A DNA stretch of 36,983 nt. It comes from Planctomycetota bacterium. GTDB taxonomy: Bacteria; Planctomycetota; UBA1135; UBA2386. Every line of letters begins with the position of its first letter. Within the stretch, counting starts at the first letter, position 1. The notes beneath the pieces are model-generated. The model was not told where the DNA came from. It did not search any database and was given only the letters and a program-made list of their open reading frames with translations. The position numbers and the translations under genes are program-made. Where the stretch lies: positions 1 to 36,983 of the forward strand of contig JAPYTD010000042.1 of NCBI GenBank assembly GCA_029936315.1. Reading direction: 5' to 3'. Positions 14,465-17,601 of this stretch are shown here, in pieces.

Positions 14465-15397
14465 ATGAGCGAACCCGAACCGCGCACCATCGTCGATCCA
14501 ACGACCGGCCGCCCCATCCTGATGGCGCCAAAACGTCAACAGCGACCGATGCACACCGGCAGCAAGCCGACCGACAAGCGCTGTCCTTTCTGCAGCGGCA
14601 ACGAGGCGGACACCCCGCCCGAAGTCGACGCCGTACGCGACGACGGCACGGCGAGAGACACGCCCGGGTGGCGCGTGCGCGCGTTCGCCAACTTGTATCC
14701 GGCAACTCGCCACCACGAAGTCATCGCCGAAGGCGCAGCGCATACGGAGCACCCGAGTGACCTCGATGCTGCGACCTGGGCGGACGCCATCGTCGTCTGG
14801 CAGCGCCGTATCACCGCGCTCGAAGCCAGGCCGGGCATCGCCTGCGCATTTTTCTTCAAGAACGTCGGTGCGCGCGCCGGCGCGTCGATTGCGCACAACC
14901 ACAGCCAGGTGATCGGCCTCGACAGGCTGCCACCGCGACTCGAACTCGAACGCAGCCAACAGCGCGCGCATGGTCGCTGCCTGACCTGCGCGTCGCTCGA
15001 GCACGCCGAGGCCGAACAACGCGTCATCGTCGCAACCGAACAGTTTGTGGCGCTCGCGCCCGAGCCACCAAAGTTGCCGTTCGAAACGTGGCTGATGCCG
15101 CGCGACTGCGGCAGTGATTTCCTGACCACTGACGCCGAAGCCCTCGCAGCGGCGCTGCATCCATGGCTGCAAGCCGTCGGCCACGGGCTAAATCGCGCGC
15201 CGTGCAACCTGTGGCTGCACCACGTGCCGGCCCCCCTGCTCGACCATGGCGAAACGTTCCATTGGCATTTCGAACTGCAGCCACGCACCGGCCAGCTAGC
15301 CGGGCTTGAACTCGGTGGCGACATGTACATCAATTCCGTACCGGCCGCAGTAACCGCGGCACGCCTACGCGCGGGGCTGGCGGAACATCCAAGCTAG
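14465..15397 (+). CDS. galT: Galactose-1-phosphate uridylyltransferase family (HIT superfamily)
   Basis: The family exchanges UMP between UDP-glucose and galactose 1-phosphate in the Leloir pathway, and close relatives act as ADP-glucose phosphorylases. The 310-aa product has the zinc-ligand motif CPFCSGNE (Cys40, Cys43), the active-site HNHSQ with His144 and nucleophile His146, then FETWLMPR and a C-terminal GGDMYINSVP closely matching the GalT signature. The length is slightly short (E. coli GalT is about 350). No galK or galE is near, so the precise nucleotide substrate is open. A hairpin follows the stop codon. Confidence 0.88.
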   Translation: MSEPEPRTIVDPTTGRPILMAPKRQQRPMHTGSKPTDKRCPFCSGNEADTPPEVDAVRDDGTARDTPGWRVRAFANLYPATRHHEVIAEGAAHTEHPSDLDAATWADAIVVWQRRITALEARPGIACAFFFKNVGARAGASIAHNHSQVIGLDRLPPRLELERSQQRAHGRCLTCASLEHAEAEQRVIVATEQFVALAPEPPKLPFETWLMPRDCGSDFLTTDAEALAAALHPWLQAVGHGLNRAPCNLWLHHVPAPLLDHGETFHWHFELQPRTGQLAGLELGGDMYINSVPAAVTAARLRAGLAEHPS

Positions 15398-15543: not shown

Positions 15544-17427
15544 ATGACGAACCAACCCAAGCAACAGTGGGGCTCGCGCCTCGGTGTGATCCTCGCTGTA
15601 TCCGGCTCCGCAGTCGGCCTCGGCAACTTCCTGCGCTTCCCCGGCAATGCGGCCGAGAACGGTGGCGGCGCGTTCATGATCCCGTACTTCATCGCGCTGG
15701 TGCTGCTCGGGATTCCGATCGGCTGGGCGGAATGGACGATGGGTCGCTACGGCGGTCGCAAGGGCTTCCACAGTGCCCCCGCGATCCTCGGTGTCTTCAC
15801 CAAGGGTCCAGTCGGTCGCTACCTCGGCGTGTTCGGCGTGCTGATCCCGCTCGGGGTCTACTTCTATTACGTGCTGATTGAGACGTGGTGTCTCTACTTC
15901 GTCATCCAGTACGTCAGCGGCGGCATCGGCATCGACCCCTCAGCGCCAATTGGCAGCTCCACGGAAGTCGGCAGCCAGGTCGAAGTCACCCACACGTTCT
16001 TCAACCAGATCACTGGCGCCACGGAAAACGGCATCCTGTTCTCGCAACCAGACGGCGGTGGTTTCCACCCAATCGTCTGGACGTTCTTGCTGGTCGCGTC
16101 GATCAACATCTACTTCATCTTCCGCGGCATCTCGAAGGGCATCGAAGCAGTTTGCAAGATAGCGATGCCCATCATGGCGATTCTCGGTGTGCTCATCCTG
16201 ATCCGCGTGCTGACGCTCGGCACGCCCGATGAAGCCAAGCCCGAACAGAGTGTGCTGCATGGCCTGGGCTACCTCTGGAACCCGGACCTCAGCAAACTCA
16301 CCGACTTCAAGACGTGGCTCGCCGCGTCGGGACAGATCTTCTTTTCTCTGTCGGTCGGCTTTGGCGTGATCATCAACTACGCGTCCTACATGAAGAAGAA
16401 GGACGACGTGGTGCTGTCAGGCTTGACCGCCTCGGCGACCAACGAGTTCTTCGAAGTGGCGCTCGGCGGCATGATCGCGGTCACCGCCTCGATCGTGTTC
16501 GTTGGGGTTGCGGTAACGCAAGAAGGCACCGGCGGCACCATGAGCCTCGGCTTCAAGACGCTGCCAATGGTGTTCGCGTCCATGCCCGCTGGCAATTTCT
16601 TCGGCGGCGCGTTCTTCCTGATCCTGTTCTTGGCAGCCATCACCAGCTCGCTGTCGATGCTGCAACCGACCAAGGCGTTCATCGAAGAGAGCGTCGGCGT
16701 CACCCGCATCGGCTCGACCGTGATCGTCACCGTCTGGGGCCTGGTCGGCAACCTGTTCGTGCTCTACTACTCGAAGGGCCTGATCGCGCTCGACACGATC
16801 GACTTCTGGGTTGGCACGTTCTTCATCTTGGTCGTCGCGGGCATCCAGATCATCGCGTTCGGCTGGATCTTCGGGATCGACAAGGGTCTGAAGGAAGCGC
16901 ATGAGGGATCGAACATGCGCATCCCGGCGGTGTTCGGCTTCATCATGAAGTACATATCGCCAACGTTCCTGTTGATCGTTGTCATTGGTTTCTGCATCAA
17001 CAACGCACCTGGCTACGTCGACAAACTGTTCGGCCACATCGAGGTCGAACTAAGCGATCCATCACCTCCCAAGGACGTCGACGACGAAGCCAAAAAGGGT
17101 TGGACGTATGTGTGGACCCAGTCGTCCGGCAAGCCGGGCACCCTGACCAAGACCACCGAAGCCACGGCGAACTTCGTCGCAGCAGAACGAGCCGTTGAAG
17201 AGAATAACTACGACGTCGCGTTCCAGGTCGTCATCAACGACGGCACGAACACGCGCACCGAGACGGTGACGCAGGGTATCGATGTCGAAGGTCCGCCGGG
17301 TGCCCGCAAGACGTGGCTCTTGCTGTTGGTGACCATCGCTGGCATTGCACTGCTTGTCTTCAAGGGTTCCAAGCGCAGCCGGGAACTCGGCCTCGACATC
17401 GACGGCCGAGAGCCACTCAACGACTAG
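15544..17427 (+). CDS. Neurotransmitter:sodium symporter (SNF) family transporter with periplasmic Ig/PKD-like insert
   Basis: Na+-dependent amino-acid uptake carrier of the LeuT fold. The 627-aa protein opens with the family signature GSAVGLGNFLRFPGNAAENGGG, which holds the unwound helix 1 and Na+ sites, and QIFFSLSVGFGVIINYASYM marks helix 6. Twelve membrane segments can be drawn, the last being TWLLLLVTIAGIALLVF (590-606). Between segments 11 and 12, about residues 505-588, lies an extra hydrophilic domain reading TYVWTQSSGKPGTL, then a FQVVINDGTNTRTETV strand pair, which looks like a PKD/REJ-type Ig fold. Topology puts it outside the membrane. The 46-aa MetS-like gene follows 33 bp later, as in MetPS-type transporters that need a small subunit, so methionine/alanine-type substrates are plausible. 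Confidence 0.9.
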   Translation: MTNQPKQQWGSRLGVILAVSGSAVGLGNFLRFPGNAAENGGGAFMIPYFIALVLLGIPIGWAEWTMGRYGGRKGFHSAPAILGVFTKGPVGRYLGVFGVLIPLGVYFYYVLIETWCLYFVIQYVSGGIGIDPSAPIGSSTEVGSQVEVTHTFFNQITGATENGILFSQPDGGGFHPIVWTFLLVASINIYFIFRGISKGIEAVCKIAMPIMAILGVLILIRVLTLGTPDEAKPEQSVLHGLGYLWNPDLSKLTDFKTWLAASGQIFFSLSVGFGVIINYASYMKKKDDVVLSGLTASATNEFFEVALGGMIAVTASIVFVGVAVTQEGTGGTMSLGFKTLPMVFASMPAGNFFGGAFFLILFLAAITSSLSMLQPTKAFIEESVGVTRIGSTVIVTVWGLVGNLFVLYYSKGLIALDTIDFWVGTFFILVVAGIQIIAFGWIFGIDKGLKEAHEGSNMRIPAVFGFIMKYISPTFLLIVVIGFCINNAPGYVDKLFGHIEVELSDPSPPKDVDDEAKKGWTYVWTQSSGKPGTLTKTTEATANFVAAERAVEENNYDVAFQVVINDGTNTRTETVTQGIDVEGPPGARKTWLLLLVTIAGIALLVFKGSKRSRELGLDIDGREPLND

Positions 17428-17460: not shown

Positions 17461-17601
17461 ATGCTCGCAGAAACACTGACCACAACCGGCTGGATCTTCA
17501 TGCTGACCTCCATTGGAGCGGTCACCACGTTGGTCATCTGCTGCTACAAGAAGATCCTGACGGCCCCTGCAAACGACGAGCCGGATGTCCCCGGCTCGTA
17601 G
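17461..17601 (+). CDS. MetS-like small membrane subunit (46 aa)
   Basis: A 46-aa ORF right after the SNF-family transporter. It has one hydrophobic helix, WIFMLTSIGAVTTLVICC (11-28), then basic YKKIL and an acidic tail ending DVPGS. In corynebacterial MetPS and related systems the NSS transporter requires such a one-helix partner encoded just downstream, so a subunit role is likely. Sequence match to the family is weak and the call rests on size, topology and position. A hairpin follows it. Confidence 0.65.
   Translation: MLAETLTTTGWIFMLTSIGAVTTLVICCYKKILTAPANDEPDVPGS

Follow-up and report, generated by a model that had tools for sequence, protein, structure and literature searches.

A PKD-type immunoglobulin-like domain inserted in extracellular loop 6 of a LeuT-type transporter from Planctomycetota

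Transporters of the LeuT type serve as a structural model for the human neurotransmitter transporters. The stretch of DNA analysed here (the window, 36,983 nucleotides, contig JAPYTD010000042.1 of a metagenome-derived Planctomycetota genome) encodes a transporter of this type with an unusually long loop between its last two membrane helices, and an earlier note made from the sequence had read this loop as an inserted immunoglobulin (Ig) domain with a role in adhesion or sensing. What the extra segment is, how it arrived in this loop, and what it might do there are the questions addressed here. The segment is a homologue of PKD repeats by profile comparison, and the account that best explains the locus as a whole, offered tentatively, is a normal symporter whose extracellular loop 6 (EL6) carries a PKD-type domain as a docking module. 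Like the earlier note, which knew of no such case, we found no paper joining NSS/LeuT transporters with a PKD or Ig-like insert in the open-access literature, subscription papers lying outside the search. Each component is known; their combination appears undescribed.

The transporter and its enlarged loop

The 627-residue protein (Table 1) matches the NSS/SNF profile PF00209 (E 2.6e-48) and aligns with LeuT chains over residues 6-488 at E ~1e-113, and a Foldseek comparison of its model with LeuT gives a TMt of 0.87 at ~41% identity. It has 12 transmembrane (TM) helices, TM11 and TM12 both among them. Mapping onto LeuT finds Na1 (A23, N28, S268, N300) and Na2 (G21, V24, A364, T367, S368) kept, together with the R31/D420 gate pair and most substrate contacts, the exceptions being N21 to S, T254 to S, and site 359, which is M. 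E304 occupies the position of LeuT E290, a carboxylate standing in for chloride, which suggests that transport is Cl- independent. Because the sodium, substrate and gate positions are kept along with E304, the protein would be expected to be a working Na+-coupled amino-acid transporter, probably a Cl--independent one.

Table 1. Features of the transporter locus, in window coordinates
Feature	Position	Strand	Basis
NSS (SLC6/SNF) LeuT-type Na+:amino-acid symporter gene with inserted domain, 627 aa	15544..17427	+	
TM11 (aa 463-486)	16930..17001	+	AlphaFold2 model
Native EL6 linker (A)PGYVDKLFG, common to relatives without the insert	17008..17034	+	
PKD-type Ig domain (aa 499-579)	17038..17280	+	
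Inserted DNA without counterpart in L032, junctions approximate	17045..17294	+	DNA alignment and blastn
Linker IDVEGPP preceding TM12	17278..17298	+	
TM12 (aa 583-614), then basic stretch	17290..17385	+	
46-aa ORF with one TM helix, immediately downstream of the transporter gene	17461..17601	+	

Counted from N487, EL6 (the TM11-TM12 loop) comprises 99 residues, as compared with a median of 17 among homologues (n = 79), which bears out the statement that NSS transporters normally have a short loop here; the three other full-length carriers of an insert have loops of 101-107 residues. About 80 of the ~99 residues make up the PKD-type Ig domain, and that this domain sits inserted within EL6 is close to certain. 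The WTQSSG motif and the INDGTNTRTETV strand pair, to which attention had been drawn, are present in the ORF at residues 524-529 and 564-575. By LeuT topology, and from the basic stretch after TM12, the loop would face the periplasm, consistent with the extracytoplasmic placement proposed for it; TM12 is present as a helix, and the region is not a cytoplasmic tail.

The anatomy of the insertion is seen most directly against L032, a transporter of the same genus (G001, contig CALCZA010000157) with a 93% identical core, a short EL6 and conserved gene order around it. In a DNA alignment ~250 nucleotides of the window (approximately 17045-17294) have no counterpart there, and the flanks are 84-86% identical. 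The interval of 17053-17308 given in the earlier note thus had the place of insertion right and its exact ends about 10 nucleotides off on each side. The short L032 loop, GYIDTLFGETEAAGDARKTW, has close counterparts in several other genera (L037, L039, L040, L041, L055) and so appears to be the ancestral state, not the trace of a deletion. Among carriers the two linkers bounding the domain, GYVD-L-G and DVE.P, are conserved, the latter occurring in five of five carriers and in none of 63 PKD repeats from other proteins.

Unrelated EL6 expansions of 44-51 residues also occur within the same transporter family (L033, 4001-5689; L048, 3995-5719; L049, 219-1940; L051, 4001-5740), suggesting that this loop is a hot spot for insertions.

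A one-TM ORF of ~30-60 residues lies directly 3' of the transporter at all 78 homologous loci examined (L032-L111), which span several phyla, and is not specific to loci bearing the insert. Its consensus is GW.FM..S...V..L..WCF.KVL; a profile seeded with ten of these ORFs had no matches in upstream or reverse-strand controls, and two scanned copies had no Pfam or NCBIfam match. The arrangement resembles MetP/MetS of Corynebacterium glutamicum, and the ORF may encode a small subunit of LeuT-type NSS transporters, akin to MetS and so far unannotated. Upstream of the transporter lies a GalT-like hexose-1-phosphate uridylyltransferase gene (14465-15397, + strand) that scores below NCBIfam cut-offs, in a region conserved in G001.

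Identity and predicted fold of the inserted domain

Profile comparisons carry the assignment to PKD. A profile of the insert built from four carriers, aligned by hhalign with the five PKD repeats of a protein encoded in the window's own genome (G000:C113), gives a probability of 98.5 and E 3e-15, and an HMM built from all five carriers matches PKD repeats by the dozen in the large repeat proteins that other Planctomycetota encode, most with i-E values of 1e-8 to 1e-14. These matches generally span model positions ~20-84 of 84, positions 1-20 being the linker next to TM11; the strand that normally comes first in a PKD domain is not recognisable in the insert. The Pfam model PF22352 (K319L-like PKD) matches all four carriers scanned, with a best E of 3.4e-5, the match of the window's insert being sub-threshold (E 3.6e-4; 20.9 bits versus a curated cut-off of 27). 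Judged by these profiles, the insert is a PKD homologue beyond chance. An REJ identity, which had been proposed alongside PKD, was rejected, with no profile match at E values up to 10, and no Big family was matched either; a search of solved structures by the insert sequence returned no significant match.

Structure prediction gives strands rather than a helical or disordered loop. In the full-length AlphaFold2 model the insert forms strands at residues 499-502, 521-528, 543-546, 556-565 and 570-579, with an only moderate pLDDT of 63-85, and the TM12 helix that follows reaches 94-98 at its centre. Modelled alone with seven sequences, the domain again has five strands (mean pLDDT 74.8, pTM 0.63). 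Its best Foldseek matches in the PDB include Ig, cadherin, PKD-like and other beta-sandwich structures, none of them significant (best E 0.014), for which reason the fold assignment draws mainly on sequence: homology comes from the profiles, and the three-dimensional fold from prediction. A PKD-type fold is very likely.

The own-genome protein used in these comparisons (L117, 655-2061, minus strand) is a 956-residue open frame with five K319L-like PKD repeats and N-terminal RTX-like GGxGxD repeats. A protein of this type is a possible kind of donor for the inserted domain, although the insert matches another repeat better than it does those of this protein.

Distribution, origin and selection

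Homologues both with and without the insert were found. Carriers number 5 of the 34 genomes of the family (G000, G019, G030, G031 and G033), representing five species, with the G019 copy a fragment at a contig edge. No further carrier was present in 154 genomes of the class and order or in 392 sampled genomes of the phylum, nor among 80 homologous loci listed from a pattern-based scan of 84,980 species genomes, the one scan that covered phyla beyond Planctomycetota and one in which remote cases could be missed. The transporter family can do without the insert, as its absence from the 93% identical L032 shows; with this absence, and with carriers found in only five related species, the domain looks like an optional add-on.

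The history of the insert does not follow that of the transporter in a simple manner. In a tree of transporter cores, the window's protein groups with L032 (100/100) and the three other full-length carriers fall in a different genus-level group; forcing the carriers into one clade is rejected (p-AU 1.2e-38). In a tree of the domain, the other four carriers come together (99/90) and the window's copy joins them weakly (75/83). Among single sequences, the window's copy is matched best by a PKD repeat in a large protein of G133 (47% over 57 residues, E 1.6e-9) and not by another carrier, while the shared DVE.P linker points the opposite way. The insert may have arisen by two independent insertions, by horizontal transfer of the segment, or by one old gain followed by many losses, the last being the least parsimonious because the short loop is conserved. 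Carriage by phage or plasmid was rejected, there being no relative in viral contigs, no plasmid match and no PHROG match.

Among the three other full-length carriers, the insert is under purifying selection and is less constrained than the core, with dN/dS (NG86) of about 0.28-0.47 versus 0.17-0.22. Residues invariant among carriers are mainly those of the PKD core and the linkers, with no obvious binding motif.

Possible roles and relation to known systems

Structures of NSS transporters show EL6 in contact with EL2 and with EL4, which forms the lid over the outer vestibule (PMC6742698). The contact with EL4 would place the acquired domain of ~80 residues beside the outer gate, where it is predicted to form a small beta-sandwich at the periplasmic side of the Na+-coupled symporter. 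From this position it might dock or recruit a periplasmic partner, either a protein or a cell-wall component, and so act as an accessory to transport outside the transport cycle, as has been proposed for the Ig-like ectodomain of mammalian PepT1 and PepT2, which binds trypsin and whose removal does not appreciably reduce transport (PMC4597091). We favour this periplasmic docking role by analogy, and put it forward as a possibility that falls somewhat short of an even chance. The broader proposal that a PKD module entered the same loop at least twice, or moved horizontally between genera, to become an optional periplasmic recruitment domain in parallel to the animal peptide-transporter Ig ectodomain, is more doubtful.

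A serious rival, slightly less probable in our estimation than docking, is near-neutral decoration of the loop, in which an insertion-tolerant EL6 captured a mobile PKD module that itself contributes little or no function. The variable length of EL6 in the family, with its unrelated expansions at four other loci, would fit this reading, as would the few and scattered carriers and the faster evolution of the insert relative to the core. The retention of the domain in five species, its conserved PKD core residues and the dN/dS below 1 among three carriers speak against it, although the need to fold harmlessly would also produce a conserved core and a dN/dS of this kind. It is unlikely that the domain instead alters the kinetics or stability of the transporter by packing on EL4 and EL2, or on its own copy in a LeuT-type dimer: dimer contacts of LeuT involve TM12 and EL6 touches EL4 and the vestibule (PMC6742698), and the conserved linkers on both sides suggest a fixed placement, but sister transporters are without the domain.

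Two further readings have much lower probability. The earlier note suggested that an adhesion or sensing domain had been fused to the transporter, taken here as adhesion at the cell surface or sensing of the environment. In its favour, surface and secreted proteins commonly contain PKD repeats, and the own-genome protein with five such repeats is a candidate of this sort. By LeuT topology, however, an inner-membrane transporter of Planctomycetota would hold its loop in the periplasm beneath the outer membrane, from which a single domain of ~80 residues cannot reach the cell surface, and no signalling module is attached; adhesion or sensing is thus very improbable. The fragmentation of the window's genome into 180 contigs could be taken to indicate an assembly chimera, but the insert is in frame, the flanking synteny is continuous, and an equivalent insert in the same loop recurs in four further genomes, of which three have named records of their own, leaving this explanation with hardly any weight.

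Two transporters with 93% identical cores, one with and one without an Ig-type domain by the outer gate, form a near-isogenic pair in which the contribution of an ectodomain is directly testable. That EL6 tolerates loop expansions, including a folded domain, is also useful for engineering.

Comparison with known systems locates what is shared and what differs. LeuT of Aquifex aeolicus (PDB 2a65) has the same 12 TM helices and the same Na1, Na2, substrate and gate positions; its EL6 is short, whereas that of the window's transporter holds the PKD-type domain. With K319L-like PKD domains (PF22352 and the C113 repeats) the insert shares the strand motifs Y.W.Q.SG..V.L ... F ... DGTN, and it differs from them in its unrecognisable first strand, in its score below the Pfam cut-off, and in being flanked by two TM helices, where those domains stand in tandem. 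PepT1 and PepT2, with which no sequence relation is claimed, have the MFS fold and carry two Ig-like domains rather than one, in another loop; like the present protein, they are secondary transporters in which an outer loop holds an Ig-like module that homologues lack (PMC4597091).
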